Below are positions 14,218 through 31,229 of a DNA stretch of 40,422 nt, in pieces. Within the stretch, counting starts at the first letter, position 1. The number at the start of each line of letters is the position of its first letter. Source of the stretch: a virus. The notes under the pieces are model-generated. The model searched no databases. It saw nothing but the letters and a program-made list of their open reading frames with translations, and was not told the origin of the DNA. Location of the stretch: positions 1 through 40,422 of IMG/VR virus record IMGVR_UViG_3300048833_000717. The stretch is one strand, 5' to 3'. Made by a program: the position numbers and the translations under genes.

Positions 14218-14263
14218 GTTTAGCTTGGGGCCGCCCCCTGCTTCCCCGGCGCCGGTTCCGGAA
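14218..14263 (-). promoter_or_regulatory. Candidate Mor/C-type activated late promoter for the I operon
   Basis: The 161-base gap between F and I holds a 23-base element at 14241-14263 that is identical to one at 31207-31229. Its minus-strand core reads TTCCGGAACC then GGCGCCGGGG, two adjoining palindromes (TTCCGGAA and CCGGCGCCGG). Seventeen bases after the element is CTAAAC (14223-14218), at the same distance as CTATCG in the other copy. With that as the -10 box the element would lie at about -31 to -53, the position bound by Mor and C in phage Mu. No -35 hexamer is evident. The rest of the gap (14264-14368) holds no gene I can support. Confidence 0.7.
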
Positions 14264-14368
14264 GCGTTGAACTTCCTGCCCGGTCAGTCTATATCGGCCT
14301 CAAGGCTGTCGTTTCGGACGTTGAGCCCGGGGGGCCGCAAGGCAGGCATCGGGCAAGCCACTCATCCA

Positions 14369-15877
14369 CTATTTCAGCGGCACCTTCCAGTGCGTTCGGG
14401 GAACCAGCCCCTTCTGCTGGATTTCCACCACCAGCTCGTGCCGGTATCCATCAACCGTGCTGGAAATCTCGAGGCGGGGCGCGCTCGATCGATGCCGGCC
14501 CTTGAAATCGGTGACATGGCGCAGGCTGCCATGCTCGTTCAGGATGCGCGGCAGATCATGCGCGTCATCGGCAGTGATCGGCTCCTGTCCCCGCCTGCGT
14601 TCGCCTTCGCCGCCATGCCGGCTGAACATATGGCGTGTATGACCATGTTCCAGCACGACCTCCGCCGAATGGACCTTCAGCCCCTCGGCCTCGATCCGGG
14701 CGACGGTGCGCTGGGAAACCCGCCCCAGTTGCAGCGGCTCCGCTTGCATGGCGCGCGGCGCGATGGTGTCCGCGATCCATTGCCGGGTGTGCGCCAGGCG
14801 CGCGGCTTCACGCCCGGTCAGCCCCGCCTCGTCAGCGAACCGCCCCATGATCCGGTTGCGCAGCGCCGCGATGCGGGAGAGTTTCGCCCGCGTCTCGGCG
14901 CTGGTGTCGCCGTCAGCCGTCCGCCGCCGCTTCCGCGCCCCGGCGATTTCATCCTGCCACTGCACGCTGGCGGGCTCGATCCCGTCGATCAGCCGCAGCA
15001 GCAACGCCAGCATGTCGTCGGCCAGCTGGATGGAAAGCTGCGCGATCAGCCGCTCGGCCGTGTCGATCAGCCCGGCCGCCCGTGCCCGGATGATCACGAT
15101 CGCGGCCTTCTCCACGATGCCCAGGATGCTTTCCGCGCCGACATTGTAATCCCAGCCATGGTCGATCGCCGGCAGCTTCGGCCGGTCCACCCGCGCGCCG
15201 CGCGGCCCGAACGGCATCCGTCCGACAGGCTCCATCGGCGCCAGGCGCGCCAGCTCCTCTTCCGTGGTGACCGTCCAGCCATTCCGTTCCAGATCCTGAT
15301 CGGACAGGTTGCGGATGCCGCACCGGCAGTTCCATCCATTCGGCGGGAAGTGGGTGCGCCAGAACGGATGGTCGACCGGCAGGATGATCCCGTTCCACCG
15401 CGCGTGCTGGGGCCGTGTCCGGCTGTCCCGCACGGCCGAATAGCGAATGTAGGGCCGCCTCGACTTCGCCTTCTGCACCCGCTCCCACTGCCCGGCGGCA
15501 TGGCTCACGCGCATGTTGGTGCGGAAGATGGTGCGCAATCGCCGCTCGCCCACGAACACGGCGTCATCGGTTCCGGTGATGCGGCGGTCCTTCACCATCC
15601 CCCACCACCCGGCCTTCTGCAGCTCGGGCTGGATCTCCGCCTGCCACATCTCGAACGTCTTGCCCTCCGCCAGTGCCCGATCCAGCGATTCCTTCACGGT
15701 GGCCAGCAGCTCCACCTTCGCCATCTTCGCAACCGTGAAGGCACGCGCATGCTCTTCCGGCTGCAGATCCCGCCAGCTGACGGAAATCTTCAGCTCGTCC
15801 CGCCGCCGGAACGCCTCGATCGCGTCTGTCGGCGGCAGGCTCAGCGCCTGGCGAATGGTGGGGGTTGGATCGGTCAA
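14369..15877 (-). CDS. F: Mu F-like minor head protein with C-terminal PBECR nuclease-like domain, 502 aa
   Basis: Residues 110 to 190 hold the Phage_Mu_F signature, including RTIFRTNMRVSHAAGQWE and HPFWRTHFPPNGWNCRC (170-186). This protein links portal and head and may be injected. The last 98 residues (from about 404) are a separate domain with VVLEHGHTRHMFSRHGGEG, then DDAHDLPRILNEHG and a YRHELVVEIQQKG strand pair, the pattern of phage barnase/EndoU/colicin/RelE-like (PBECR) domains often fused to F proteins. The start is a TTG at 15877 that overlaps the stop of the adenine methyltransferase; GGAGG lies four bases upstream. This unusual start sits at the edge of the inserted methyltransferase module. 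Confidence 0.9.
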   Translation of the reverse strand: MTDPTPTIRQALSLPPTDAIEAFRRRDELKISVSWRDLQPEEHARAFTVAKMAKVELLATVKESLDRALAEGKTFEMWQAEIQPELQKAGWWGMVKDRRITGTDDAVFVGERRLRTIFRTNMRVSHAAGQWERVQKAKSRRPYIRYSAVRDSRTRPQHARWNGIILPVDHPFWRTHFPPNGWNCRCGIRNLSDQDLERNGWTVTTEEELARLAPMEPVGRMPFGPRGARVDRPKLPAIDHGWDYNVGAESILGIVEKAAIVIIRARAAGLIDTAERLIAQLSIQLADDMLALLLRLIDGIEPASVQWQDEIAGARKRRRTADGDTSAETRAKLSRIAALRNRIMGRFADEAGLTGREAARLAHTRQWIADTIAPRAMQAEPLQLGRVSQRTVARIEAEGLKVHSAEVVLEHGHTRHMFSRHGGEGERRRGQEPITADDAHDLPRILNEHGSLRHVTDFKGRHRSSAPRLEISSTVDGYRHELVVEIQQKGLVPRTHWKVPLK

Positions 15878-16764
15878 GCTGCCTCCGAACTGATTATCAT
15901 GTTCGATGACGGCGGCGGCGGGCAGATCCCGGGCGAGAAAAACATGACTTCCCCGCCCGTGGTTCTATCGCGAACGCTATATCCGATGCCATAGGTGAGA
16001 ACCTCGTACCCCATATAGAGCAGTCGTATCTCCGACACGTCATCGTAGGAAACAATCCACTTGGCGTTTCCGCCTAGCTGGGAGAGCGCAGCCGCCACTG
16101 CCGCATGGTCTTCAGGGCGATAATAATCGTAGTAGAGTTGCCTGCCCTTTCGGAAATAGGGGGGGTCCAAGTAAACTAGAGTTTTCCGCCTCCAGTGCGG
16201 CTCTCGTTCCTTCAGAAACGCCACAGCGTCGAGATTGGATAGACGAATTCTCGATCGATATCTGGCGATGGCTTCAATGCGGGCGATGAGAGCGGATTTG
16301 TTGAAGCGCGCGTCAATCTTCCACGGCCCGCTCTGATCACGCCCTCCAATCACACTGCCGTTTAGAATGCCGGATCGATGCGTGCGGTTAAGAAAGAACG
16401 TCGCAAAGCCCAACTCAAGCAGATCTACCCCTTCTTCAGCCGACAGGATCGACTTGCAACGATCGCGCACATCGACGGTGACTTCGGTATCCTGAATCAA
16501 CCGACAGAGCGCCTCAGTTTCGTTGAGAACGCTCCACCAGAATGCATGGATCGCACTGTTCAGATCGTTGATTTCGACGTGCCGGACAACGCCAGAGAGG
16601 AGCAATTCCCAAGCTACGGCTGCACCACCCGCATAGGGCTCGACGTAGGTGCCATCAGAAAGATGGTTTTGGCGGATCAATTCCGCAACAAACGCCGCCA
16701 GCTTCCCCTTCCCTCCAGGATACCTCAAGGGGCTGTAGCGGCCGGTTGCCTGCATCTTGGTCAT
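15874..16764 (-). CDS. Dam-type (D12 class) N6-adenine DNA methyltransferase, 296 aa
   Basis: It transfers a methyl group from SAM to adenine N6. Residues 10 to 22 carry the SAM-binding PLRYPGGKGKL motif, and DPPY is at residues 200 to 203 (VYLDPPYFRKG). Other family parts are YVEPYAGGAAVAWELL (motif I region) and FFLNRTHRSGILNG. Length is typical for Dam/DpnM enzymes (about 270 to 300). The ATG at 16764 overlaps the stop of the ParB-like gene as ATGA, so both are made from one message; three codons later there is another ATG. Base composition is clearly less GC-rich than in neighbouring phage genes, a sign of separate acquisition. The target site cannot be read from sequence. No matching restriction enzyme is seen. 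Confidence 0.95.
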   Translation of the reverse strand: MTKMQATGRYSPLRYPGGKGKLAAFVAELIRQNHLSDGTYVEPYAGGAAVAWELLLSGVVRHVEINDLNSAIHAFWWSVLNETEALCRLIQDTEVTVDVRDRCKSILSAEEGVDLLELGFATFFLNRTHRSGILNGSVIGGRDQSGPWKIDARFNKSALIARIEAIARYRSRIRLSNLDAVAFLKEREPHWRRKTLVYLDPPYFRKGRQLYYDYYRPEDHAAVAAALSQLGGNAKWIVSYDDVSEIRLLYMGYEVLTYGIGYSVRDRTTGGEVMFFSPGICPPPPSSNMIISSEAA

Positions 16765-18164
16765 GGTCTGGACGCTGCACCGAAGGCCACGATGAACAGC
16801 GGAACACACGCGTCCCATCCGTTTCTAAGCGCGTCGATACCCGGAATGATATGGGCTGCATGCACATAGTCATTCAGCGAAATGATCGAATTCTTGGACA
16901 ATTTATCGGTTAGGTGCCGCTTGGTCTGGGCTATCTCCCTAGCTCGCGCCTTATCATTGGCCTGCACATGCGCCACAACCCTTTCGAGACGGGTACTCAG
17001 ATAGCTGTCTGCGTCCGGACCATTCGGCTCTGAAAGCGAGTTTGCGCGACAGTAGCTATCAACTGCCAGCTCAATCATCGCCCTAAGAACAAAGCTTGAG
17101 GATATCGGAGCATCGTTCAACTGCAGCCTCTCTGCTTCACGAAGGAGCTGCTTTCCCCGTTCGGTCACGGGCAATAGAAAATTGTGCGCACGGGGGGCCA
17201 GCGTCGTTCGCGGAGATGTCGTTCTGCTCGTGCCGCTTCGCCTTGATGGCTTATGCGAAGACGGCTGCCGAATTTTCGACGGCGTAAGGCCCTCTATGGT
17301 CGTTGATTCGAACAGGGTTTGCTTCTTTCCCAGCGTAGGGGCTGATATCCCCCACCGGCTCAAAACCTGATCCCTATACTCTCCGATCGATTCCTTCTGA
17401 TTCAGGCTTCGCGTAGAGATTTTTCCATCGGCGATGTCGGACATTATCTCCTTCAGAATCTCGAGCGTCGCCTTCGGGTCAGTTTTGAAGGAGGGGTGGC
17501 GCGCCTTTTCTTTTTGCAGATGGCCTAAGCCAAAGAGCTCCTTGAATTGCGCGGACTGGAGCAACCGCTCCAGTATCGATGACTTGTTGCGGATCGCGAA
17601 GGCGACCTTTTTCCACCACTCGCTAGATGGATCTGCGTGTCGACCAACGAACTCCACAACGTCGATAATCGACTTGTCCTCTTGGAACCGCTGGATCTGC
17701 AACGGGCTCCACTTTATTCGCCCCTCTCCATCCAGTCCCTTGCCATGTCGACGCTCGATCCACGGCCGGGCTTGTTCCAGGCTATCGAATTTCACGCACT
17801 GGATAACATCCAAAGCCTTGGGCTTCTGAGAGGTGGAGATTTCCACCAATTTCTTAGCCACAGCCGCATCGCAGTCCAATTGGCGAATTCGATTGGGCTC
17901 CAAGAGCAGCTTCACGGCAGACAGTCGGCGGTTTCCATCGACAACGACGTAAGCGCCATCCTCGTCTTCATCATCAATGACGTATGGGAGGTCGCCGGGA
18001 TCGAGACCATTATCTCGGATGCTTTCCATGATCGTAAAGAAGTGGCGGGTGTTTAGATTCAGTATCTGGCTTATCGCCCCATTCTCTCCCGATGGACGAT
18101 CAATTCGCGGGTTGCCCACATCCAGGACAAGCTCGCCAACTTCCACATCAATCCGAACAAACAT
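16761..18164 (-). CDS. ParB/Srx-fold protein of unknown function, 467 aa, paired with the Dam methyltransferase
   Basis: Residues 55 to 95 contain a ParB N-terminal-like core (LPYVIDDEDEDGAYVVVDGNRRLSAVKLLL split over strands, with GNRR at 77-80), the motif that binds NTP in ParB-type proteins. The middle (about 160 to 330) is helical with Trp-rich patches. Residues 335 to 365 are a Ser/Arg/Thr-rich linker, and the C-terminal 100 residues form a helical domain (RAMIELAVDSYCRANSL; NDYVHAAHIIPGIDALRNGW). The ATG at 18164 has GGGGTGA just upstream; longer frames lack support. It has no HTH like the early ParB. GC content is visibly lower than around it: one 60-base line has 34 G+C against 44 in a line of the terminase. 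The function is unknown; a defence, counter-defence or modification partner is inferred from the coupling to a methyltransferase. Confidence 0.82.
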   Translation of the reverse strand: MFVRIDVEVGELVLDVGNPRIDRPSGENGAISQILNLNTRHFFTIMESIRDNGLDPGDLPYVIDDEDEDGAYVVVDGNRRLSAVKLLLEPNRIRQLDCDAAVAKKLVEISTSQKPKALDVIQCVKFDSLEQARPWIERRHGKGLDGEGRIKWSPLQIQRFQEDKSIIDVVEFVGRHADPSSEWWKKVAFAIRNKSSILERLLQSAQFKELFGLGHLQKEKARHPSFKTDPKATLEILKEIMSDIADGKISTRSLNQKESIGEYRDQVLSRWGISAPTLGKKQTLFESTTIEGLTPSKIRQPSSHKPSRRSGTSRTTSPRTTLAPRAHNFLLPVTERGKQLLREAERLQLNDAPISSSFVLRAMIELAVDSYCRANSLSEPNGPDADSYLSTRLERVVAHVQANDKARAREIAQTKRHLTDKLSKNSIISLNDYVHAAHIIPGIDALRNGWDACVPLFIVAFGAASRP

Positions 18165-18201
18165 ACTCACCCCACAGCATCCAGCATCGAATAAGGTGAG
18201 C

Positions 18202-18227
18202 CTAGCGCTGTGAATGACAGCGTCTAG
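18202..18227. repeat. Imperfect inverted repeat upstream of the ParB-like/Dam insert
   Basis: CTAGCGCTGT (18202-18211), a five-base spacer and ACAGCGTCTAG (18217-18227) form a dyad with a perfect CGCTGT/ACAGCG core and CTAG at both outer ends, with one extra base on one side. It lies in the 201-base gap between the portal stop and the ParB-like start, about 40 bases before that start. It could be an operator, a hairpin or part of a promoter serving the inserted genes. No run of U follows it on the minus strand, so a factor-independent terminator is unlikely. The remaining gap holds no supportable gene. Confidence 0.45.
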
Positions 18228-18365
18228 TTTTTGTTCACGGGCAGCCCCCCGATCGGCGCGGAGAAGTTGCTGGCGTGCAACGCCATATGGTGTCGATATC
18301 TCAGGTCCCACCAGTTCGCCCAAACAAAGGCTGTGTGTCTGCATCGCTCCGCGCGGCATGGGCAT

Positions 18366-20081
18366 TTACTGCCCGCTCACCCCGGCCGCGCGGCTCACGA
18401 TGCAGGCGTGCTCCAGCAGCTGCTCGAACGCCTCGTCGTCCAGTTCGGCTGTCAGCTGATCCAGCAGATCGCCCACCTCCTCGAACGAGGCACCGGCCGC
18501 GATCGCATTGGCGACCGGTGCGGAGAGCCCATCCATCAGCCGGGCGCCCTCCTGCTCCACCAGGCTGTCGGCAGCCTGGTCGATTTCGTCGGCTTCCACC
18601 GCCAGCCTTCGCGCCACGGCCGCCGCGATCACATCGGTCAGGGCCGCGCTGCCCGGATCACGCGAATAATGGCGATAAGAACCCCCTAAGAAGTGGGTCG
18701 CGGCGTTCGCAGGCGTCTCCGGACCTTTTGGCCCCCGTCGCGCGCTGGCGGGCCGTTTTTCGGGGTCGGCAGGATCGGTGGCCGGCGCGGCGGCAGCCGG
18801 TGCCCACAACAGCTCCGCATCCTTGCCCTTCGGCGCATCCGGCAGGCCCAGCTTGTCGGCGATCACCGACATCTCAACGCGGCCGCCCAGCTCCACGAAG
18901 GTCTTCACCGCCGGCATCATCTTGCCCGCGTCCCACTCTTCCTCCCGGCCGATCTTCAGCCGGGGAATGCCCACGTCCGGCCCGAAGTTCAGGCGCACCA
19001 TGTGGGCGATGACGTCCCGTGCGATGCTGGCAGACAGCAGCTTCGCGTCCGCGCGCTCGATGTCGGCGCGCACGTCGCCATGCTCCTTACCGCTGCCCAG
19101 CCCGCCGGTGTCTGCATCGGTCGTCGCCGTCTGCCCCAGCACCGCCTTGGATATCTGCCGGTCCACATACTGGGCCAGCTTGTCGTAGATCTCGGAGCCG
19201 TTCGCCTTTCCATCCACCAGTTCGATCGACATCCCCTCAGGGATTACGGCCGCGGCATCCTCACCCATGCCGGCCACGGCCCGCAGCAGCGTGCGGATCT
19301 GATCCTCGTTTGAACCGGTCGGATACTTGCCGATGCGGAAGGGGCGGCCATAGATGTCCGCGAACGACAGCCAGTCCTTCAGGGCGAAATTTTTGAACAG
19401 ATAGGCCCAGGCAACTGCCCGGGCGAGGCCGTTGCGGATGGGCAGCCCACTCTTCGCCGGATGCAGGTGGAACAGGAACTTCGCGGGCGGCAGCGGCACG
19501 CCGCGCCATTCAGCACCCCTGTCAGCGTTCGCACCATCATAGCCACCGCGCAACAGCGGAATCTCGCCCGTAACAGGATCCCAGGCGAACCAGCGCGGCA
19601 CCCGCCACTTCAGCTTTTCCGGAAACCAGAGGGCCCCGTCCTGGTTCCAGATGATCTCGGTGCCGGAATAGCCCTTGCCGATCGCGTCGAGCACATCGAA
19701 CAGTTCGCTTTCGAGTGCATCGCGGTTCAGCCACTCCCGCACGAAGTCCGCTGCTCGCACATCGGCCTTCTCGTCCGTTGCCGCATCCAGCGTGATCGGC
19801 AGCTGGGAAACCTGCCGCTTGCGTGTGCCCAGCACACCCAGATAGTGCAGGTCGCGCTCCTCCATCTGCTCGGCGAGATCCAGATAGGCGGCAGGATCAC
19901 CGGTCTCCGCCTCCAGAAGCAGTGAGGCCAGCGCCTGGGGCGTGATGCCGCCGATATGGATGTCGGATTCAATCCGCCGCACACGCGCCGTGTCCGCGGC
20001 CGAGATCTCCGCTTTCAGCAGTCCGGGGTCCAGCTTGCTGCCGTCACCGAAGGTCCGCTTGTAATTTTCGGGTGATGCCAT
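18366..20081 (-). CDS. Portal protein, Mu gp29-like (DUF935), 571 aa
   Basis: It forms the dodecameric vertex ring through which DNA is packaged. Family signs are IHIGGITPQALASLLLEAETGDP near residue 42, the LGVLGTRKRQVSQLPITL stretch with the conserved R-K-x-x-V segment, GYSGTEIIWNQDGALWFPEKL, RNGLARAVAWAYLFKNFALKDW and the FADIYGRPFRIGKYP motif that is very characteristic of DUF935. The last 130 residues are Ala/Pro-rich then helical. The start ATG at 20081 has GAGGGACC upstream and lies 10 bases below the terminase stop. In simple Mu-like phages the F gene follows directly; here the ParB-like/Dam insert intervenes. Confidence 0.95.
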   Translation of the reverse strand: MASPENYKRTFGDGSKLDPGLLKAEISAADTARVRRIESDIHIGGITPQALASLLLEAETGDPAAYLDLAEQMEERDLHYLGVLGTRKRQVSQLPITLDAATDEKADVRAADFVREWLNRDALESELFDVLDAIGKGYSGTEIIWNQDGALWFPEKLKWRVPRWFAWDPVTGEIPLLRGGYDGANADRGAEWRGVPLPPAKFLFHLHPAKSGLPIRNGLARAVAWAYLFKNFALKDWLSFADIYGRPFRIGKYPTGSNEDQIRTLLRAVAGMGEDAAAVIPEGMSIELVDGKANGSEIYDKLAQYVDRQISKAVLGQTATTDADTGGLGSGKEHGDVRADIERADAKLLSASIARDVIAHMVRLNFGPDVGIPRLKIGREEEWDAGKMMPAVKTFVELGGRVEMSVIADKLGLPDAPKGKDAELLWAPAAAAPATDPADPEKRPASARRGPKGPETPANAATHFLGGSYRHYSRDPGSAALTDVIAAAVARRLAVEADEIDQAADSLVEQEGARLMDGLSAPVANAIAAGASFEEVGDLLDQLTAELDDEAFEQLLEHACIVSRAAGVSGQ

Positions 20082-20091
20082 TGTCGGTCCC

Positions 20092-21609
20092 TCAGAAACC
20101 CCGCCGGCCGCGCCAGCTGGGTTGGAAATCGTCGTCGTGGTCAGGCCGCATGAAATCGGCGTGGCGATCGCGCGGGGAATCGCCGGTCCGGTTGACAGGG
20201 TGGTAATCGAATTCCGGCGTGGGGAAGTCGCCCAGCAGGCTGGCGATGGCCCCCGCCCAGAACCGGTCGGAGTGCACCTCGTCTTCTGCGTTCACGATCC
20301 GGATGGCGCTGCCCGCGCCGGACACCTTCTTGATCGCAAGAAAGTCGTCACGGATCTTTGGATCATAGGGAATGCGGATCCGCACCCGCTCCACCCGCGT
20401 CGCCAGCGACATGGCCAGATCGATCCGGGTCGCGCCCTGCAGCAGGAAGCCCTGCACCCGATAAGAGCCATGCAGCCTCTGCAGATCCTCGACGACCTTT
20501 TCGCCCATGCCGCCCTGGTCGATCCCGGCCTGCACCACGCGGCGATGCCGCATCATCCAGTTGAAGAAGGCATCCTGTTCGTCGAACGACTTCCCAACTT
20601 CCTCCCACCGGTCGCGCAACACCAGCGTGTCGCCCACCAGTTCGAAGCCCCACTGGATCTGGCCATCACGCCGCCGCGCGACGTCCCGGCCGATGAAGTA
20701 AAGCCCGCCGGCATACAACTCCGGCTTGCCGGCATGATCGTCCTCGCAGGCGGCCAGGTGCTGGAGGTTGATGAGCGATCCGGCGCCGACGCTGGGAATC
20801 ACGTCCAGCTCTTCGGCCGCATTCTCCCCATAGAAGCCCCGGATGTCGGCGATGAACTCGGCCTTGGGCAGGATCGCCTTTCCCCGGATCGCGAAAACCT
20901 CTTGCATCCGCTCATAGAGACCATCCTCAATGGCATCGTCGAAGGTGATGCGGATCAGCCTGCCTGGCTGCTTGCCGGCCCGCATTTTCTCCACCAGCTG
21001 GTTGAACGGGTTGGCCACCCCGTCATGCGTGGAGATCACGATCACCTGACCGCCCCACATCAGCAGGGCGAGGGCCGCCTTGATCTTTTCGGCTATGGCG
21101 TTGTGGAACGCGGCCTCGTCCAGGATCACGACGCCCTGTTTGCCCCGGAATGCGCGCGGGACGGAGGGCAGCGCCACGATGCGGAAGCCACTGGCGAACT
21201 TGATCCGGTAGGACTGGATGTTCTTCGATCGGCCGTCCTCGTCCAGATCGTCGATGATCTCCTCGTCTACATCGTCGGCCACGATCTTGAAGGCGCGGGC
21301 CCACATGGCACAGGCCTCGATGAACTCGATCGCCATGTCTTTCTCATAGCCCATGTAGAACACATGGTCTCCGCCGGCAGACGGCGCAGCGGCCGCCCGC
21401 ATCACGGCGAATGCGGCGATCGCCCAGGTCAGGCCGATCCGGCGGCTCTTCTCCACCACCACGACGGCGGTCCCCGCCAGCAGATCGGCAACGGTACTGG
21501 CCTGATAGCCCAACAGAACTGCCTGCCGGCTCTTGCCTTCGAACAGGCGTTCGGCCGCCTCGATCTCGGCGCGCTTCTCATCCTTCAGGTCAGGGTGGAA
21601 AGTTGTCAT
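20092..21609 (-). CDS. Terminase large subunit, Mu gp28-like, 505 aa
   Basis: It is the packaging ATPase and nuclease. The ATPase part has a Walker A-like KSRRIGLTW at residues 54-62 (the deviant form usual in Mu-type terminases), Walker B GVVILDE at 159-165 and a coupling motif VISTHDG near 194. The nuclease part begins near residue 300 with YFIGRDVARRRDGQIQ, whose Asp residues fit the RNase H-type metal site, and continues with a VVQAGIDQGGMGEKVVEDL segment. The ATG at 21609 overlaps the 61-aa gene stop (ATGA). A longer frame reaching 21870 runs through the neighbouring genes as Arg/Cys-rich shadow and is rejected. Confidence 0.96.
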   Translation of the reverse strand: MTTFHPDLKDEKRAEIEAAERLFEGKSRQAVLLGYQASTVADLLAGTAVVVVEKSRRIGLTWAIAAFAVMRAAAAPSAGGDHVFYMGYEKDMAIEFIEACAMWARAFKIVADDVDEEIIDDLDEDGRSKNIQSYRIKFASGFRIVALPSVPRAFRGKQGVVILDEAAFHNAIAEKIKAALALLMWGGQVIVISTHDGVANPFNQLVEKMRAGKQPGRLIRITFDDAIEDGLYERMQEVFAIRGKAILPKAEFIADIRGFYGENAAEELDVIPSVGAGSLINLQHLAACEDDHAGKPELYAGGLYFIGRDVARRRDGQIQWGFELVGDTLVLRDRWEEVGKSFDEQDAFFNWMMRHRRVVQAGIDQGGMGEKVVEDLQRLHGSYRVQGFLLQGATRIDLAMSLATRVERVRIRIPYDPKIRDDFLAIKKVSGAGSAIRIVNAEDEVHSDRFWAGAIASLLGDFPTPEFDYHPVNRTGDSPRDRHADFMRPDHDDDFQPSWRGRRGF

Positions 21610-21791
21610 TCGGCAGGCCCTTCCACCGCAAAGACCACGCGGACATCGAGGCGGCAGCCATTGCCTCCACGAAGAGCATCGGCCGCACGCATCGCCGCGA
21701 ATTCCCGCTCGTGACGGCTCACAACCAACCACACCGGGCCGTCCATGGACTGCCGCTTTTGCTCCACGATCCAGACGCCGCGCATCTTCAT
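21606..21791 (-). CDS. Small hypothetical protein between methyltransferase and terminase, 61 aa
   Basis: The ATG at 21791 overlaps the MT-A70 stop as ATGA and the stop overlaps the terminase start as ATGA, so it is held in the chain by coupling on both sides. The sequence reads like a small folded domain: KMRGVWIVEQKRQ, GPVWLVVSRHEREFAAMRAADAL and CRLDVRVVFAVEG, a beta-beta-alpha-beta arrangement. No family is recognised and there is no membrane segment. A role with the methyltransferase or in packaging is possible but unproven. Confidence 0.7.
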   Translation of the reverse strand: MKMRGVWIVEQKRQSMDGPVWLVVSRHEREFAAMRAADALRGGNGCRLDVRVVFAVEGPAE

Positions 21792-22357
21792 GCCAGCGCC
21801 TCGAACTTGTCGGTCTCGTTGCCCCAGCAATCCCAGCCCGGCCGGCGCTGGCGGGCGAACAGCTCCACATAGGGGCCGTCGAACAGCGCCTCGCAGTCGG
21901 CGTGGATCTGGTCCGGCTTGCGGCTGTGCTCCCGTACTGGGGCCACGATCAGGTTGCGGACGCTGCGGGATTTCGGCTTCGGCGCGCCGCGCGTGCCGAT
22001 CAGGTAGAACTCCGCCGCCGATCGGAAGATGAACCCCGTGCCGAACTGCCACGCCTTGCCGGTGCTGGATTGCTTCGCCCAGGCGCCGGCAGTCTTGAAC
22101 TCGAATCCCCAGCACTCCATCACGGCGATCGCGTGCGGCAGCATCGGCGCGGTCGCCCACATCACCAGCGTGCAATCCGGCGCGGCCAGCTTCGAAACCG
22201 GCAGCCGCGCGATATCCTCCAGCGTCGCGCAGTCATAATGCGCCTGCGGGCTCTTCGCCTTACCCCGGTCGCTGTGCAGCGTGAACGCCCACGGCGGATC
22301 GGCCAGGATCAGCCCGTAATGATAGTGCATGAGCGACATGAACGGGTTCGGGTTCAC
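21788..22357 (-). CDS. MT-A70 family adenine methyltransferase, 189 aa
   Basis: The catalytic motif DPPW is at residues 20-23 (LILADPPWAF), placed near the N-terminus as in phage MT-A70 enzymes, followed by HYDCATLEDIARLPV, DCTLVMWATAPMLPHAIAVMECWGF and the C-terminal ARQRRPGWDCWGNE that closes this family. It makes N6-methyladenine in DNA or, less probably, RNA. The GTG at 22357 is preferred: GGGGGG lies six bases upstream and the GTGA overlaps the stop of the 44-aa gene; a TTG at 22387 and an ATG at 22339 are weaker. It sits between small and large terminase genes, so methylation may be timed with packaging. Confidence 0.93.
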   Translation of the reverse strand: MNPNPFMSLMHYHYGLILADPPWAFTLHSDRGKAKSPQAHYDCATLEDIARLPVSKLAAPDCTLVMWATAPMLPHAIAVMECWGFEFKTAGAWAKQSSTGKAWQFGTGFIFRSAAEFYLIGTRGAPKPKSRSVRNLIVAPVREHSRKPDQIHADCEALFDGPYVELFARQRRPGWDCWGNETDKFEALA

Positions 22358-22488
22358 GGCCGCCCCCCGATGATCAGTGTCAGGCAAAACACCAGCATTT
22401 CGGCGGCCGCAGCCGAAACGGCATCAAGAAGCCTCTGAGGGACCCCCCAGAGGCGCTTGAGGACCGCCTGAGCGCGGGGCGGCATCAT
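22354..22488 (-). CDS. Tiny hydrophobic-tailed protein, 44 aa
   Basis: This short frame starts at ATG 22488, overlapping the stop of the DUF3486 gene (ATGA), and ends at TGA 22354-22356, overlapping the GTG of the MT-A70 gene (GTGA). The N-terminal half is basic (PPRAQAVLKRLWGVPQRL) and the C-terminal half is hydrophobic (AAAAEMLVFCLTLIIGG), long enough for a marginal membrane helix. A second ATG follows the first immediately. The couplings at both ends are the main support; no family is recognised. Confidence 0.6.
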   Translation of the reverse strand: MMPPRAQAVLKRLWGVPQRLLDAVSAAAAEMLVFCLTLIIGGRP

Positions 22489-23204: not shown

Positions 23205-23208
23205 GGCA

Positions 23209-23508: not shown

Positions 23509-23816
23509 TTTCCCCGCTCCCTGAGAAACTCCTCGATCCGGTCGATCCCGGCCTCGACCTTGCCGACGTCGCGACCCAGTGCGCGCACGTCGCTCTTCAA
23601 CCCCTCGAGGTCGGCCTTGGTCGGCACCTGGTCCAGGCGGACTTTGATGTTTGAGCAATCGCGCTCGATTTCGGTGACCCGCTGCTGCAAGGCCTTCGCT
23701 TCGTCCGAATTTCGCCAGCTCGATGCGCGGTTGGCGACATAGACGGCGCACGCCACCGCAATCAGGGCGGAGCCGGCGGACAGCCCGCGAAACAGCAGCT
23801 CCACAAACGATTCCAT
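23505..23816 (-). CDS. DUF2730 protein, Mu gp25-like, 103 aa
   Basis: One N-terminal membrane helix (SAGSALIAVACAVYVAN, residues 13-29) is followed by a long coiled coil (residues 40 to 103, ALQQRVTEIERDCSNIKVRLDQV and on) that ends in EEFLRERGK. Length and architecture match DUF2730 proteins, which lie at this spot in Mu-like genomes. It is likely anchored in the inner membrane. The ATG shares a base with the previous stop (TAATG). The function is unknown in the family. Confidence 0.85.
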   Translation of the reverse strand: MESFVELLFRGLSAGSALIAVACAVYVANRASSWRNSDEAKALQQRVTEIERDCSNIKVRLDQVPTKADLEGLKSDVRALGRDVGKVEAGIDRIEEFLRERGK

Positions 23817-24073
23817 TACGGGCGGCCTTTCAAGACAGTGACAGGTTCAGAGTGCGGCGGCCCGCAGACACGGCGCCCCCATTCGGATTTCTCCTGGCAC
23901 CCGATGCATCGGGTGGCGGCCGCGAAGGCACGGCGGCGCGGCTCCGGGATCTCGTCGCCGCAGACCGCGCAGATCTCGGCCCCAGGTCCCAGCAGCGCGG
24001 CGGAAATCGCGCGCACGCCCTCGGCCCGCTCGGCTTCTTCCAGCTGCTGTGCCTGGTCCAGCATGTCGGTCAC
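23816..24073 (-). CDS. DksA/TraR-type zinc finger protein, 85 aa
   Basis: Two CxxC pairs, C35-C38 (ICAVCGDEIP) and C56-C59 (RCIGCQE), with RRRAF between them form the C4 zinc finger of the DksA/TraR family, and the short N-terminal helix is typical of phage TraR-like versions. Such proteins insert into the secondary channel of RNA polymerase and alter promoter choice. The start is a GTG overlapping the endolysin stop; an ATG three codons later is possible. It lies between lysis and packaging genes, as in many Mu-like phages. Confidence 0.9.
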   Translation of the reverse strand: MTDMLDQAQQLEEAERAEGVRAISAALLGPGAEICAVCGDEIPEPRRRAFAAATRCIGCQEKSEWGRRVCGPPHSEPVTVLKGRP

Positions 24074-24621
24074 GCCACCCGTTCCCGCAGCCAGCCGTAG
24101 AGGAAGGCTTCATTCGCCCCGCGCTTCTCGGCCAGCTCGACGTAGCGGGCGCCCTGCAGGCAGTTCATCGCGCGCAGCAGCACCGTCACGCCCTCGCCGC
24201 CGCGCACCTTCAGATAGGAGGTCAGGGCGCGCAGGGTGCCGGGGCCGACGGCGCCATCCACAGCGATATCGGCGAACAGCTTGCCCTGGTTGTTCAGGCC
24301 GTTCAGGGAGCGCTGCAGGAAGATCGCGCCCCAGCTCGGCCCCATGTTGACGCCAGTGTCGATGCACTCGGCCGCGATCGGCGCGCTCAGCAGCGCGATA
24401 TGGTCGAACTTCGGCTCTCGGACATAGCGGTTCCAGTAGATGTCGAACGCTTTCTGGCGCGGCAGATCCCGCATAGGGCCAGCCCAGCCGTTGGTGCGGG
24501 CGACCGCCTTCGTGATCCCCCAGTTCGTCTCGCCACCGGCATCGCGCGGGTCGTTCACATAGCCGCCTTCGCGGGTGATCACGCCGTCGATGATGGACTT
24601 GATTTTCGGGTCGACGATCAT
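24070..24621 (-). CDS. Endolysin, glycoside hydrolase family 108, 183 aa
   Basis: It cleaves peptidoglycan at lysis. Residues 16 to 38 carry the family signature TREGGYVNDPRDAGGETNWGIT with catalytic Glu18. The middle has YWNRYV and FDHIALLSAPIAAECIDTGVNMG, and residues 105 to 180 form the accompanying peptidoglycan-binding part (AVDGAVGPGTLRAL; MNCLQGARYVELAEKR). No signal peptide is visible, consistent with holin-dependent release. The ATG at 24621 overlaps the o-spanin stop (ATGA) with GGGGTG upstream; a GTG at 24630 would add three residues. Confidence 0.95.
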   Translation of the reverse strand: MIVDPKIKSIIDGVITREGGYVNDPRDAGGETNWGITKAVARTNGWAGPMRDLPRQKAFDIYWNRYVREPKFDHIALLSAPIAAECIDTGVNMGPSWGAIFLQRSLNGLNNQGKLFADIAVDGAVGPGTLRALTSYLKVRGGEGVTVLLRAMNCLQGARYVELAEKRGANEAFLYGWLRERVA

Positions 24622-24917
24622 TGCGGGCACCCCGCAGCCGCGTCGGAAAGCCGCGCGGCCAGGTCATCGCCCCAGCTGCCGAGATCGGCCACGAAGGCAA
24701 TGCCGGCGTCGTTGCCCTGCACAATGGCACCGGGCGCAGGCGCGGGCTTCGCCGGTATCGGGAGCGCCAGCTCCAGCGGGCAGATGGTGCGGGTCACCGT
24801 CGTCTGCTCAACGATCGGCTCGGGCGCTGCCGCCCGAGAGGTTGCGCAGGCAGTCAGCATCGCAAGAGAGCAGGCCGCCAGCATCACGCGGGGCGGCGGA
24901 AATGGCAGCAGTCGCAC
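24618..24917 (-). CDS. Outer-membrane spanin lipoprotein (Rz1-like), 99 aa, nested in the i-spanin gene
   Basis: The frame starts at a GTG (24917) with AGGA eight bases upstream and gives RLLPFPPPRVMLAACSLAML followed by a lipobox LTAC, so cleavage would leave a lipidated Cys. The mature part is Pro-rich (IPAKPAPAPG) as in Rz1-type proteins. Its first 110 bases overlap the end of the i-spanin gene in another frame, the lambda Rz/Rz1 arrangement. It would link the outer membrane to the i-spanin and complete lysis. An ATG at 24884 would give a signal peptide without the basic start and is less likely. Confidence 0.85.
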   Translation of the reverse strand: MRLLPFPPPRVMLAACSLAMLTACATSRAAAPEPIVEQTTVTRTICPLELALPIPAKPAPAPGAIVQGNDAGIAFVADLGSWGDDLAARLSDAAAGCPQ

Positions 24918-25338
24918 GGGATTTCCTTTCGGCGGAGGTGCGGGCGCGGGCTTCCGCGCGGGAGACGGCGGCAAGGGCACGCTGCTCGGCCTGGGCCAGC
25001 TGGGCGCGGGCATCGGCCAGATTGGCTTCGGCCACGCGCTGCCGCGCGACGCGATCGCGCACCTGGGCGCCGCAGGCAGTGGAGATCGTCCACAGATCAT
25101 CCGACGTCAGCGCCGCCTCGCAGGCAGCGGCCTGACGCCGTGCGACAACCGCGGCTTTCAGCTCACGCGGGCAGGCATCCACCGGCTTCCCAATGTCGCC
25201 GGCCGCCATGGTGCAGATGCGCAGCTGCTCGCGCGCGTCGCGTGCGTGCCGCCAGTCCGTCATGGCAGCCAGGGCAGCCAGCGACAGCGCAACTGCGCCC
25301 GCCAGCTTCGCCCAGGGTGGCAGGAGGGAGATGCGCAT
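24808..25338 (-). CDS. Inner-membrane spanin (Rz-like), 176 aa
   Basis: A single N-terminal membrane helix (LAGAVALSLAALAAM, residues 12-26) is followed by a periplasmic domain with Cys pairs and a long Ala/Arg/Glu coiled coil (residues 95 to 145), then SCDADCLRNLSGG near the end. This is the type II membrane plus coiled-coil layout of i-spanins. The end overlaps the lipoprotein gene, and the endolysin follows. The ATG shares a base with the stop of the spike gene (TGATG). Confidence 0.85.
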   Translation of the reverse strand: MRISLLPPWAKLAGAVALSLAALAAMTDWRHARDAREQLRICTMAAGDIGKPVDACPRELKAAVVARRQAAACEAALTSDDLWTISTACGAQVRDRVARQRVAEANLADARAQLAQAEQRALAAVSRAEARARTSAERKSRATAAISAAPRDAGGLLSCDADCLRNLSGGSARADR

Positions 25339-28300
25339 CAGTGCACCACCTCAGCCTTCAGGATTTCAACCTCGATGCTCTGCCCGGTGATTGCGCCGCC
25401 GGCGGCGTCGCGGGTTTCCAGCACGATCAACGGGGTCACACCCAGGGCTGCCGCCCGCGTCATTGGCACGCTCTCCAGTGTCAGCTCGGTCCATTCTTCG
25501 GTGAACAGGATCGCGCCGCTCGTCGTGGTGGAGAGCGTATAGCCGCCGTTGCGGTTTCCGGGCGTCAGCGCGCCCATCTCGATGGCGGCCCCCAGGTTCG
25601 ATGCGTTGTTCGACAACGCCACCCGCAGATAGGCGGCCATCGCACTGGTGGAGCGGATCCGCATCTTCAGGCGCATCGTGTAGGTCACACCCGCCGTCAC
25701 CGTCAGGAAGTTGCCGGTCGCCCGGCGGAACCGCAGCATGGGCGCGCTCAGCACCGTGTCCGCCGTCGCCGTCACCACCAGGCGCTGGGTGTCCCCCAGC
25801 AGGGAGGCAACGCCATCGAACCCGGCGCCAACCTCCGCGATCCAGCCATTCCAGACCGCACCGGCGCCGCCCGTGATCGTGCCGCCGCTGCCCGCGCCAA
25901 CCGATGTCAGATCGATAGTGCCGCCGATCGGATCGCCCAGGTCCACGACATAGGGCGTGGCGGCCGCCGCGAATGGGCGGGCCATTTCCCAACCGCGCCC
26001 ACCGGCGGGATGGACGAGGTCATCCTCAGAGCGCCATGGGTAGTCGCGGCCCTCCAGCGGGTTCGCCGGGTCGCCGCTGCGCGCATACCAGGGAACGACG
26101 ATCGCGCCGTGCGCGCTGGCGATAGCGCCAAGGCCGGCGTTCACCTCATCGACGTTGGTACGCGCGTATCCACCAGCCTGCCATTGTGCGACTTCCTCTG
26201 AGCGCATCATTTGCTCTGGGATAAGGATCTGCGCATTCGGATAGGCGGCCCGAAGGGTCCCCAAGGCCGAGTTCATGGCTGACAGCCAGCCCGCATCGCC
26301 CGTGGCCCCAAGATCGAGGGTGTTTGAGCCCCCATTTATGAAAATCAGGTGCGCGGACTCCGCCAGATAGGCGCTATCGGATGCCAGCGCGGTCGCCTGA
26401 GAGGCAACCGCCGTGGCGGAGGCCCCTGCGACTGCATCGTTATAGGGCTGCGACACGCTGCTGCCGCTCACCGTCATCGCGTGGCGGATGCGCCGGTTGC
26501 CCATCATGAACCGGCCGAACACAGCCGGGCGAAGCCAGTGCGATATGCGGTCGGCGCTGCCCGAACCGCGCACGATCGTCTCCTCGAACGATGCGCCCAG
26601 GTTCGCCAGCATCGGGTTGGAAACAGGCGCGGGTATCGGTGTTGCCATCGCCTGCACCGCTGGGCTTGCCAGGCTGCGCGCCGAACCAGTTCCCACGCCG
26701 TCGGAAACCGTCACCAGACAGGCGACAACCTTGCCGAGGTCAGCGCCGGTCTTGGTGTAGAAATCACCATTCGCGCCGGAAATGTCGCTCCACGGCCCCG
26801 CGTCACTGTCCGCGCGCTGCCACTGCTTCGTGAGCGAGGTATAGGCGCCATCCCACAGGCCCGGCCCGATCGCGCTGGTCTGCCCGACATAGGCTGCACC
26901 AGACATCACCGGCAGTTTCAGGTTGGCGATCGTCGGCGCAGGCGAGCCGCCTCCAAACGTCCCGCTGCCATTCAGCACAAGGTTCGGCACCGTCGCCAGC
27001 GTGCCCCGGTTCGGGGCACCTGCAGGGTCGTTCCACACGTCCGCATCGTCGCGGAAGAACAGTTGCGGAAGCCCGCCGGGCCAGTTCTCTCCGTTCGCGC
27101 CGATCCCGGCGTTGGTGAACACATCCAGGATGGCGGGATCGTGCAGGTCGGGCAGCGCCTCCGCATCCTCATAGACCCGCAGGCCCATCCAGTGCAGCCG
27201 GAAGTCCGCAGGCAGATAGGCCGCTGTCCCGGTGTTTCCGAAGGCGGCCCACACGCCGCTGAGGAAGTTCAGCGTCCGCGTGCCGTCCAGCGTGTCAATC
27301 TGCCCGCTCGTTGGCGCACGGAGCACCCGGTTCACCGCGCAGGTGATCGCGCCGTTTGCGTGCTCGGTCACCTCCCCGCTTTCCTCGTCGGTGACAGGCG
27401 AAATCTGCGTGAAGTCCAGCGCGATGACGACCAGGTTATGGCCGCCCGCATTGATGACATTGCCATATCCCGCGTTGACAGCGGTGGAAGTGGACAAGCG
27501 GAAGGTGATCCCGCTGCCCACGGTCAGATAGTTGTTCGTGTCGCTCCCCAGCGTGGCGAGTCGGCCCGATCCGCTGGCCGGCGCGTCGAAGCTGAACGCA
27601 TAGACTGCCTTCCGCTTGGCGCTGCCGCCGGTGATCGCGGTTCCCATCAGCGCGCGCGCCGTGCCGTTGCTGATCGGCCCATCCGTCGGCGCGTCTTTCG
27701 TATAGAGCCGCCAGTAATTCACCGTCCCGCCGATGCGGACAGAGACAGTCTTGCTCTGCGCCAGCGCCGCCGGGGCCGTCGCCTGCAACTCCATCCACTC
27801 GTCCGGCGCGAAGGTGCCATCGGCGCCCGTGAAGCCTGCCGCCGTGATGCCTGCCAGACTGGCAGCCTTCCGCCACTGGCAGTCGGTCACCTGATCCACG
27901 GCCTTCGGATCGAGCCCATAGAACAGTTCCCGCACCGAGCTGGTCACCGTCTCGTCGGGGTCGAGATCGAACACCGGCAGGAAATGCAACTCCACCGGGA
28001 TCATGTTGTCGTCGAACACCCGGTTCACCGGATCGATGGACTGTTCCAGATCGCCAGCAGGCCCCCAGCCTTCCCAGCCCGGCTTCGGCGTCCAGCCCGC
28101 CACCATCTGCGCATGGGTCGAAAGGCGGTCAGCCGTCGGGGCCGTCCACTTCGCCGCATCGGTGATCGTGGTTTCCTCACCGTCGAACCGGAACTGAGGC
28201 GTTGCCATGGGCCGCAGCGTGCCGACCGTGGATTTCGTCGTCACCCACGGAGCGTCAACCGACCATGTGCCGCTGCCGTTGCCATAGTTGTTCGCCACGA

Positions 28301-30590
28301 TCGTCATGTGCGTCCGCGCGCCGCGAGGGTCGCCAATGTTGAAGCCGTTCGTGATCCCGCCGCGAATGAAGTCACCGAAGCTCATCACCCGATGGCCTTC
28401 ACCAACAGCCGCATTGTCGGTGTAGAGGAAGCCCTGAAACCCACCACGGCCCTTGCCAGCGCCGCCCGACTGCCCGCCGTCGAACAGGTTCATCCGGCGT
28501 TCGAGATAGGGGTTGGTGCCGGAACTGCCGCTGTTCCCATATTGCTGGTCGCCATCGCCGTGCGGATCGCCCCAATCCCCCTTGCGGTGGATAAAGCGCC
28601 CGATGACGCAGCCCCAGCGCCGGTCAGCCCGCACACGGGGATGCGTGAGGGTCAGCGCGGCGGACTGGTTGGCGTCCTGGCTGAACCGGTCGTAGGTGCT
28701 GAAGAAGTTCCAGTGCTCGTCGTCGGCATCCTGCTTCTGATCGCGGACGCCGTTCGAGAAGTCCCGGAACTCATGTTCGGTGATAATGAAATCGCGGATT
28801 TTGCCCGCCGAGGTGCTGTTGAAGCACCACGGATAATAGTTATAGCGCGGCATATTCTGCCAGGTGATCGTGCTGTCCGCCCGCCCGCCGGTATAGCCGC
28901 TGCCGGTCGCCGTCAGCCGCCAGCGCGTCACATAGAAGCCATCCGGCGCTCCCACGGGCTTCGCAGGCGTCGTCGCGTCCGTCAGATACAGCACCTCGAA
29001 CTCAGCCGCCGCTCCAGTGCCGGGGCCTGCATTGAACTCCAGCGGATGAATGCCGGTCGTCCCGTCCGGGGTGTTGGCGTTCCCCGTGCTGATGAAGGCA
29101 GGCGGGTTCGCCGTCGCCCACACGCCCAGCGCCGCGCCGGTCTGGTTGCTCGACAGGTCGCTATGCGGGTCTTTCAGATCCACCCGAGTCAGCGCGCCGC
29201 CGCTCCACGTGCCGAGGAAGTTGGTGTAGCCCGGCCGCCAGTAGGTCGTCGGGTCGATGTCCGTCTGCCAGTTCATCGCAATCGACCCGTCCGGGTTGAT
29301 CGAAATATCCCCGCCCTTGCTGGCGCAGTGGAGAAGCTGGATGCGGCGCGACAGTTGATACAGGTCACCGAATGTCCACAGGAACTCTCCCGTGAACGTC
29401 AGCGCCACGCTGCGCACCCGCTGGAACACGGTATAATCCATGTTCCGGCAGATGACCTTATTGACGTTGGCGTATGCCCCAGCGACCCGATCAGCGGCTG
29501 CCGAGCGGAGCACCACCTGCTTCGTGCGGCTGTTCGTCGGGATGGACAGGTCGAGCGTGGAATAGACGCCCGAACCAGTCAGCTCGATCACCGCGCCGGG
29601 GAATGCCGCGCCGAGCGTGTTGATGCTGGAAGTCACTGCCGCGACAGCCGCCGCCAGAGAGGCGTCGTCGGTCACGGTATAGTCTGCCGCCCGGTTCGAC
29701 AGCTTCTCGCAATAGGTGCGGCTGCGCTTCATCTGCCCGCCCAGCGTGCAGATGATGTCCAGGATGTAGGCGCCAAGCGGCAGGTTATCCCATCCAGCAC
29801 CGGCCCTGATCTGATTGCCAACCACCGCCACCGCGTCCGCCGGCAGCGCGCCATAGGTGGCCTGCCCGGTCAATTGGACGCTCGCCGTCGCGCCGTCGGC
29901 CATATCCTCAATCGTGGCGAGCGTGTCACCGGGCGCGGCGGTGTCCATCCAGTAGCGCGTCGACGGCCAGACCAGCTTGAGGGCAGTGGGAGCGACACCG
30001 GAAATCATCGCCGGCCCGAACGGACCGCTGATCCGGCCTGAATTGGTGGCGGACGGGTGTGTTTCGATCAGCTCGAACGGCGGGATCTCGGTGCCACCCG
30101 ACAGTGGCGCGGCGAGGCCGGCAACAATCCCGGTACCGGCCCCGTTGATCGCCAGGAAGCCCAGATCGAATGCTTCACCGTCGCCGATCACGGTGGATCC
30201 CGCCGTGCGGTTCCCGATGGACGCAACCAGGTCACCCGGCTGCGTCGCCTCTGAATAGGAGATGGCGCTGACGGACAGGCCTGCCAGGGTCACCAGCGCA
30301 GGCGCGCCCACAAGCGAAAAGCGCCGCTCCGCGGCATCGCCGGCAGCATTCTGTACACGAGCCACCAGCTGGCGGACCTCGTCCGGGGTGAACCCGGCCG
30401 TCACCGTCACGGCGCCAGCCGCGTTAACGGTCAGCCCATCGCCACTAACCCTGCTGAACGTCACAGCGCCGCCCAGGCCGGAGCGCAGCTGCGCCTGCAC
30501 GCCCGTGGCTCCTGCCGGAATCCGCAGCCGGTCGATGGATAGGGCGCCGCGCGCCACGCCGCCCCGGAACAGGCCCTTGAACAGGCTCAT
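25338..30590 (-). CDS. Giant tail spike / receptor-binding protein with SGNH-hydrolase-like domain, 1750 aa
   Basis: The N-terminus (MSLFKGLFRGGVARGAL) is followed by Ig-like and cadherin-like segments to about residue 290. A repetitive beta-rich stretch (about 300 to 700) looks like a right-handed beta helix. A LamG/concanavalin-like part lies near 960 to 1190 and an Ig-like part near 1210 to 1320. Residues 1327 to 1535 resemble an SGNH hydrolase: LGASFEE (Ser in a GAS instead of GDS block), INGGSNTLDLG (Asn block) and DLVHPAGG (Asp/His block). The C-terminal 200 residues look like a carbohydrate-binding jelly roll. It probably binds and deacylates a surface polysaccharide. It is placed between the holin-side genes and the spanins rather than after the tail tip. 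The ATG overlaps the previous stop. Confidence 0.85.
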   Translation of the reverse strand: MSLFKGLFRGGVARGALSIDRLRIPAGATGVQAQLRSGLGGAVTFSRVSGDGLTVNAAGAVTVTAGFTPDEVRQLVARVQNAAGDAAERRFSLVGAPALVTLAGLSVSAISYSEATQPGDLVASIGNRTAGSTVIGDGEAFDLGFLAINGAGTGIVAGLAAPLSGGTEIPPFELIETHPSATNSGRISGPFGPAMISGVAPTALKLVWPSTRYWMDTAAPGDTLATIEDMADGATASVQLTGQATYGALPADAVAVVGNQIRAGAGWDNLPLGAYILDIICTLGGQMKRSRTYCEKLSNRAADYTVTDDASLAAAVAAVTSSINTLGAAFPGAVIELTGSGVYSTLDLSIPTNSRTKQVVLRSAAADRVAGAYANVNKVICRNMDYTVFQRVRSVALTFTGEFLWTFGDLYQLSRRIQLLHCASKGGDISINPDGSIAMNWQTDIDPTTYWRPGYTNFLGTWSGGALTRVDLKDPHSDLSSNQTGAALGVWATANPPAFISTGNANTPDGTTGIHPLEFNAGPGTGAAAEFEVLYLTDATTPAKPVGAPDGFYVTRWRLTATGSGYTGGRADSTITWQNMPRYNYYPWCFNSTSAGKIRDFIITEHEFRDFSNGVRDQKQDADDEHWNFFSTYDRFSQDANQSAALTLTHPRVRADRRWGCVIGRFIHRKGDWGDPHGDGDQQYGNSGSSGTNPYLERRMNLFDGGQSGGAGKGRGGFQGFLYTDNAAVGEGHRVMSFGDFIRGGITNGFNIGDPRGARTHMTIVANNYGNGSGTWSVDAPWVTTKSTVGTLRPMATPQFRFDGEETTITDAAKWTAPTADRLSTHAQMVAGWTPKPGWEGWGPAGDLEQSIDPVNRVFDDNMIPVELHFLPVFDLDPDETVTSSVRELFYGLDPKAVDQVTDCQWRKAASLAGITAAGFTGADGTFAPDEWMELQATAPAALAQSKTVSVRIGGTVNYWRLYTKDAPTDGPISNGTARALMGTAITGGSAKRKAVYAFSFDAPASGSGRLATLGSDTNNYLTVGSGITFRLSTSTAVNAGYGNVINAGGHNLVVIALDFTQISPVTDEESGEVTEHANGAITCAVNRVLRAPTSGQIDTLDGTRTLNFLSGVWAAFGNTGTAAYLPADFRLHWMGLRVYEDAEALPDLHDPAILDVFTNAGIGANGENWPGGLPQLFFRDDADVWNDPAGAPNRGTLATVPNLVLNGSGTFGGGSPAPTIANLKLPVMSGAAYVGQTSAIGPGLWDGAYTSLTKQWQRADSDAGPWSDISGANGDFYTKTGADLGKVVACLVTVSDGVGTGSARSLASPAVQAMATPIPAPVSNPMLANLGASFEETIVRGSGSADRISHWLRPAVFGRFMMGNRRIRHAMTVSGSSVSQPYNDAVAGASATAVASQATALASDSAYLAESAHLIFINGGSNTLDLGATGDAGWLSAMNSALGTLRAAYPNAQILIPEQMMRSEEVAQWQAGGYARTNVDEVNAGLGAIASAHGAIVVPWYARSGDPANPLEGRDYPWRSEDDLVHPAGGRGWEMARPFAAAATPYVVDLGDPIGGTIDLTSVGAGSGGTITGGAGAVWNGWIAEVGAGFDGVASLLGDTQRLVVTATADTVLSAPMLRFRRATGNFLTVTAGVTYTMRLKMRIRSTSAMAAYLRVALSNNASNLGAAIEMGALTPGNRNGGYTLSTTTSGAILFTEEWTELTLESVPMTRAAALGVTPLIVLETRDAAGGAITGQSIEVEILKAEVVH

Positions 30591-30910
30591 TGGCTCAGCC
30601 GCACATTGATCGCACCACTCGTCCAGGACGTGCAGCGCACCCGATAGAGGACGCCATTCTCAGGCGCCTCCAACACCGTCCTGACGGGCTGCGAAAAGGA
30701 GATCGGGCCATCGGAATCGCCACCAGGAATGGCCGTCACACCGCCGTCAAAGCTGGTCTCGACGACGACAGTTCCGACGAAAACACCCCACAGCGCGAAG
30801 TTGAAGCTGCCCTGAAACGCCACCCACGGCGTCGCCTCGTCCAGCGCATCCAGCACGCCGGCTGAAATCCGGTTCACGTCGTCGCCGCTGGTCGGTGTCA
30901 GCTTGCCCAT
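30587..30910 (-). CDS. Hypothetical phage protein, 107 aa
   Basis: The ATG at 30910 shares a base with the holin stop (TGATG) and the stop overlaps the spike start (ATGA). The sequence starts with GKLTPTSGDDVNRIS and then becomes beta-rich (VAFQGSFNFALWGVFVGTVVVETSFDGG, PISFSQPVRTVLEAPENGVLYRVRC), like a small beta-sandwich. No signal peptide is seen. Position directly before the spike suggests a spike partner, adaptor or decoration protein; this is inference. The longer upstream frame to 31099 is shadow of the holin gene. Confidence 0.72.
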   Translation of the reverse strand: MGKLTPTSGDDVNRISAGVLDALDEATPWVAFQGSFNFALWGVFVGTVVVETSFDGGVTAIPGGDSDGPISFSQPVRTVLEAPENGVLYRVRCTSWTSGAINVRLSQ

Positions 30911-31176
30911 CAGATTGTCACCCCCGCCACGCGCTCCAGATGGCGGTATCGGGCCAGCCCGAGAGCCCCCAGCAGCGCTGCCACTGAAACCCAGTCGAAC
31001 GGAGAAACGGGGCCGCCTGTCGCCAGCTCGGCGAACGGCACGAATGCGCCGCGCACCAGAACGGTCAGGGTGCAGGCCCAACCCGCCGCAGGCCGCCATC
31101 CGCGAACCATGAAATCAAAGGCGCCGGCGATGGGCCGGCGCTGGATGGGTTCAGGGGCTTCGTCTCCGTCCTGCAT
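30910..31176 (-). CDS. Holin, 3TM/GTA-holin type, 88 aa
   Basis: A basic start region with RPIAGAFDFMVRGWRPAAGW, hydrophobic helices at about 31-51 (AGWACTLTVLVRGAFVPFAEL) and 59-77 (FDWVSVAALLGALGLARYR), and a short charged tail fit the small phage holins of the GTA-holin group; by eye only two clear helices are visible. It would form the membrane lesion that releases the endolysin. It is the first gene of late region 1, right after the candidate promoter. There is no ribosome site before the ATG at 31176; an internal ATG at 31110 (residue 23) is the alternative. Confidence 0.8.
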   Translation of the reverse strand: MQDGDEAPEPIQRRPIAGAFDFMVRGWRPAAGWACTLTVLVRGAFVPFAELATGGPVSPFDWVSVAALLGALGLARYRHLERVAGVTI

Positions 31177-31182
31177 GGGCGG

Positions 31183-31229
31183 ACGATAGGGTGATGGAGG
31201 GCACCACTTCCCCGGCGCCGGTTCCGGAA
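31183..31229 (-). promoter_or_regulatory. Candidate Mor/C-type activated late promoter for the holin-to-F operon
   Basis: Directly after mor, bases 31207-31229 repeat the 23-base element found at 14241-14263 without mismatch (minus strand TTCCGGAACC then GGCGCCGGGG then AAG). Seventeen bases further lies CTATCGT (31189-31183), at the same distance as CTAAAC in the other copy, a likely -10 box without a -35 box. Mor-activated promoters of phage Mu have this layout with the activator bound near -43. The holin ATG begins only seven bases after the box. Confidence 0.72.

Follow-up and report, generated by a model that had tools for sequence, protein, structure and literature searches.

A repeated 23-mer in a Mu-like phage genome

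The window analysed here, an entire IMG/VR virus record (40,422 bases), is a Mu-like phage encoded on the minus strand, which carries homologues of MuA and MuB, a Mor-like activator, a holin, terminase, the Mu portal, F, the I protease and the major head protein T; ParB-like and Mu transposase genes are among its genes. A holin-like gene (30910..31176, minus strand; phrog_3427, 2.8e-5) would be the first gene of a lysis operon, and gene I, the head maturation protease/scaffold (13143..14207, minus strand; PF10123, 7e-81), the first gene of a head operon. The interval between holin and endolysin holds a 1,750-aa gene (25338-30590, minus strand) with a GDSL-lipase domain (PF13472, residues 1385-1528) that resembles a fibre or depolymerase, for which this is an unusual site, and that partly accounts for a mor-to-I distance of 17 kb, where 7-9 kb is usual. 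The head operon contains, between F and a 534-aa gene (16761-18365), a gene for a D12-class N6-adenine methyltransferase (15874-16818, minus strand).

The window contains two copies, and no more, of the 23-mer TTCCGGAACCGGCGCCGGGGAAG (transcribed strand), both on the minus strand. Copy 1 (31207..31229) starts 6 nt past the stop codon of the mor-like gene, in the gap that extends to the holin ATG (31177-31235), while copy 2 (14241..14263) precedes gene I in the gap that separates it from the F-like gene (14208-14368). The pair is the sole perfect 23-nt direct repeat in the window, in which no other match was found at up to three mismatches, the expectation being 0 (100 dinucleotide shuffles). 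An earlier sequence-only reading had reported the 23-base identity of the two copies, their location in true intergenic gaps upstream of I and of the holin, and a distance of 17 bases from each copy to CTAAAC or CTATCG, all of which was confirmed. Its statement that mor lies directly before the first copy is correct in transcription order, i.e. for the copy at 31207. The only candidate for a third copy, CCGGATCGGCGACCGG at 34568, lies within a coding gene and was disregarded; with only two copies in the window at up to three mismatches, the site search gave no further late promoters of the PP or Pmom type.

By homology, the 121-aa product of the mor-like gene (31236..31601, minus strand) is a member of the Mor/C transcription activator family: it matches phrog_836 (6e-18) and PF08765 (26.3 bits for a cut-off of 24.9), its family profile matches 1rr7 (Mor, 3e-4) and Mu C (2e-3), and alignment of the family to Mu Mor and C with hhalign gave 97% and 1e-10. 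The AlphaFold2 model (pLDDT 90) has a C-terminal helix-turn-helix (HTH), whose recognition helix reads VSERHVREVL. Foldseek and VIA-align matched the HTH part alone (residues 73-121), Mu Mor and C being absent among the matches listed. Each complete phage examined has one clear Mor-family gene. A second, weak match to the Mor profile in the window (34673-35155, minus strand; E 9e-5) was judged mere HTH resemblance; this 160-aa protein seemingly consists of two repeated HTH-like halves.

Lineage-private pairs in the same two gaps of related phages

No relative was retrieved when viral contigs were scanned with Mor and I as single proteins, or for exact 22-mer matches. Relatives were obtained by alignment-based and portal-based scans, which added 160 loci; 112 loci in all contained mor and I, or 106 after removal of near-duplicates, and 1,272 mismatched cross-locus pairings served as the null. 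In 48 of the 106 loci, the gap that follows mor and the one that precedes I shared a segment above the 99th percentile of mismatched pairings, in contrast to none of 97 when the region upstream of the portal was submitted to the same test as a control. With a score that rewards dyads, 30/106 loci exceeded the 99% level and 46/106 the 95% level, against 0/98 above 99% for the portal-upstream control. About half of the loci had no significant shared element under these tests. A common segment is present in both gaps of RcapMu, RcWaterboi, RR1-B, Rhodovulum phage P1 and Pelagibaca phage P1, with a different sequence in each, and further examples are CCTGACATTTGTCAGG (locus L018), GGGCGCAACGTTGCGCCC (L106) and CCGGTGACAGTGTCACC (L152). 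The element is an inverted repeat, and each phage lineage has its own sequence for it. The search of related phages that the sequence-only reading had called for lent it support, the paired arrangement being found after mor and before I in dozens of phages.

The pairing extends to the Stenotrophomonas phages QH16 and Suso (L010, L011), which have a different early region together with a Mor-like gene and an I-like protein: an element of the GTGCGGG/CCCGCAC type lies after mor, before the lysis operon, and again before the capsid operon, and AACAAT stands at the right distance from the post-mor copy in both. Pelagibaca phage vB_PeaS-P1 (L007), which carries a paired element, has a Mor-family gene at 26748-27191; the paper describing this phage reported it as lacking Mor (PMC5488378). 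In the Rhizobium phage RR1-B (L004), two more copies, at 26081 and 31118, precede the tape measure gene and a baseplate gene; at the latter copy the -10 position reads CACTCT, and the baseplate gene has its annotated start codon approximately at the predicted +1. Extra copies in L093 and L098 lack a -10 context and were set aside. An uncultured Sphingomonas locus (L040) has two Mor-profile matches (8925-9315 and 13862-14501) and may represent two neighbouring or rearranged phages.

The relatives also set the register of the symmetry. Two inner palindromes, TTCCGGAA and CCGGCGCCGG, had been singled out in the window; they are real and perfect, but what the relatives conserve is a longer imperfect dyad, CCGG-N8-CCGG, which corresponds to 31212-31227 in copy 1 and 14246-14261 in copy 2 (both minus strand). 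The inner palindromes were therefore set aside and are probably incidental. The relatives bear as well on the possibility that the pair is a recent, functionless duplication of DNA. The identity of the two window copies would fit such an event; however, their flanks are unmatched beyond the 23 bases, and it is contradicted by other phages, whose corresponding gaps hold matching pairs with unrelated sequences, so that this possibility is close to negligible.

Promoter geometry and predicted transcript starts

When 38 loci were aligned on the dyad centre alone, an A at +34 (76%) and a T at +38 (69%) rose above a nearly flat background. After dereplication (30 loci, 60 copies), the -10-like motif nAnnnT was present at the two expected offsets in 48 of the 60 copies, compared with a mean of 3.3 and a maximum of 11 at other offsets. 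A fixed offset of this kind is characteristic of a -10 hexamer, in which the A would be -11 and the T -7, and puts the dyad centre at about -44 to -44.5. TGA directly after the dyad (+10 to +12) is also enriched among the relatives. In the window, the putative -10 hexamer of the lysis promoter is TATCGT (31183..31188, minus strand), at +32 to +37 from the dyad centre, where nAnnnT is enriched in the relatives; that of the PI-like promoter is TAAACC (14217..14222, minus strand), which is weak and whose spacing is one base below the family mode. The sequence-only reading had the spacing of its boxes right; the better-supported hexamers begin one base after the CTA-starting boxes that it had proposed. 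With this register the element lies at -53 to -31, as that reading had it, and the dyad centre at -43.5 relative to the predicted starts.

A consequence that had been missed in the sequence-only reading is that the predicted transcript starts lie at or beside start codons. For the holin the predicted start is the A of the ATG itself (31176, minus strand), and no Shine-Dalgarno sequence is present upstream (+1.2 kcal/mol). For I it is about 14210, 3 nt upstream of the ATG (14207..14210, minus strand), which would leave a leader of at most about 3 nt. Among the 38 phages, 26 have an in-frame I start 44-47 nt after the dyad centre, transcription being predicted at +45, and these starts have a median Shine-Dalgarno energy of -2.45 kcal/mol, which is like that of random sequence (-2.4) and amounts to none, whereas gpT starts with a Shine-Dalgarno sequence in 90% of cases in the same phages. 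Over all loci, nAnnnT lies 6-7 nt upstream of the start codon in 64/105 cases for I, 10/93 for gpT and 19/105 for the portal gene. The late mRNAs of many of these phages, including the holin message of the window, consequently look leaderless. In Caulobacter, leaderless mRNAs are common (375 mRNAs) and efficiently translated (PMC4117421), so hosts of this kind could use leaderless late mRNAs. A variant of the same explanation retains the operators and has the late mRNAs start further upstream, or the start codons mischosen. The 12 of 38 phages without an in-frame start at +44 to +47 speak for it, as does AGGG near the ATG of the window I gene, a possible weak Shine-Dalgarno sequence (-5.1 kcal/mol); the coincidence of 26 I starts with the predicted transcription start, at random-like Shine-Dalgarno energies that set them apart from gpT, makes this variant rather unlikely.

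Another alternative is that the element acts as RNA, either as an intrinsic terminator or as some other hairpin towards the 5' ends of the two transcripts. The palindromes of RcapMu and RR1-B are followed by TTTT and do look like terminators. Yet no more than 14 of 76 copies have a T-run of at least four behind them, only 5 of 38 loci have one after each copy, and neither copy in the window is followed by a T-run. On these counts the terminator was rejected as a general reading. Neither a -10 at fixed spacing, nor a predicted start downstream of the element, nor the covariation with a protein helix described below would be expected of a hairpin, and I consider this alternative very unlikely.

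The recognition helix and the proposed late switch

The half-sites of the element follow the recognition helix of Mor. Half-site and helix are correlated across loci (Mantel r 0.40, P 0.0005), and the correlation persists once the rest of Mor and I is allowed for (partial r 0.28, P 0.0005). The clearest switch involves position 7 of the helix, in xxxRxVx, where Arg goes with nGGA (SERHVRE in the window, SQRHVRR in RcapMu, TERHVRR in L012, TQRWVRE in RR1-B) and an aromatic residue with nTGA (TERHVYR in L018; also L013, L026, L060 and L148). The counts of nGGA to nTGA were 12:1 for Arg versus 0:13 for aromatic residues after dereplication (Fisher P 3e-6), and 6:1 versus 0:8 (P 0.0014) in loci outside the discovery set, namely those that had failed the pair test and in which the half-site was read at fixed geometry upstream of the I ATG; these P values are optimistic because of shared ancestry, the independent, well-supported switches numbering only two or three. 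On the best trees, the Arg/aromatic trait switches about seven times in step with the base, with 2-3 independent pairs on well-supported branches. Five loci beyond both sets, for which only mor is available (L005, L024, L040, L083, L110), agree by eye.

Since the half-site tracks the recognition helix, the binder of the element is almost certainly a Mor-family protein; the HTH of the AlphaFold2 model, combined with the covariation, points to an HTH that reads a dyad half-site. Other phage proteins, such as a repressor, a ParB-like protein or a transposase, often bind palindromes and are encoded nearby, the last two in the window itself. Only two copies are present, however, both at late-promoter geometry, and their sequence tracks the Mor helix. 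Moreover, no transposase or ParB gene is annotated in the records of Suso and QH16, and yet both phages have the element behind mor and again ahead of the capsid operon, which makes a ParB-like or transposase site unlikely. Taken as a whole, the assignment to another phage protein appears highly improbable.

The two copies would therefore be operators, one at each of two late promoters that correspond to Plys and PI in Mu, and both would be bound by the single Mor-family activator of the phage (31236-31601). In the mechanism that I propose, mor would be the last gene read in the early operon, and its product would switch on the lysis/packaging operon directly downstream and the head/tail operon 17 kb on. 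An activator dimer would contact the imperfect dyad CCGG-N8-CCGG, whose centre lies about 43-44 bp before the start, and would recruit or activate host RNA polymerase at a weak -10 (TATCGT or TAAACC) that adjoins the dyad and is accompanied by no good -35. The holin message, and probably the I message too, would begin at or within about 3 nt of the start codon. The sequences themselves establish the repeat, the genes, the spacing, the conserved arrangement, the covariation of helix and half-site and the missing Shine-Dalgarno sequence at the holin start; binding, activation, start sites and leaderless translation are all things that I infer from sequence comparison, and the explanation as a whole is very probably correct. 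The idea, already put forward in the sequence-only reading, that a single Mor-type activator drives both late operons from identical sites located where Mor and C bind in Mu is now supported by three largely independent comparative lines: paired elements of private sequence, a -10-like hexamer at Mor spacing, and covariation of half-site and helix. Beyond that idea, the comparison adds private operators across the family, a partial recognition code and predicted leaderless late promoters. Extension to the broad Mor-bearing group, with one activator, lineage-private sites, a simple code (Arg nGGA, aromatic nTGA) and leaderless head and often lysis mRNAs, is on balance favoured.

Searches of the open-access literature turned up no report that Mu-like phages have paired sites or leaderless late mRNAs, and novelty is claimed within that limit. 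In many transposable phages few late promoters are annotated; for their late switch, the results offer a positional rule together with part of a protein-DNA code, so that activator and targets should be predictable from sequence. They also offer a natural series of matched activator/operator pairs, which should be mutually insulated and useful for studying the evolution of specificity, and they predict leaderless initiation for phage morphogenesis genes.

The closest known systems are those of Mu. The Pm promoter has a -10 and lacks a -35; the site of Mor there is a 16-bp dyad (5-6-5) with its centre at -43.5 (PMC4390567, PMC4287176). Plys and PI are activated by a Mor/C-family dimer, whose dyad overlaps the -35 region or lies immediately upstream of it (PMC4461284, PMC4287176). 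The window shares with Pm the activator family and a nearly equal spacing; the half-site sequence is unrelated, and Mor drives the middle operon in Mu, whereas the Mor-like protein of the window is proposed to drive late operons. The likeness to Plys and PI lies in two sites in the same gene context, one ahead of a lysis gene and one ahead of I, each at a fixed distance from a -10. Mu, however, divides the work between two paralogues, Mor acting at Pm and C at four late promoters, in contrast to one Mor-like gene and two sites in the window, and its I ATG is preceded by the purine-rich AGCAGGA, unlike the leaderless arrangement proposed for the window and its relatives. Rhizobium phage RR1-B has four sites where the window has two, and it and Rhodobacter phage RcapMu differ from the window in the T-runs after the palindrome; both have late transcriptional activator genes and, as in the window, a private palindrome after mor and before I.
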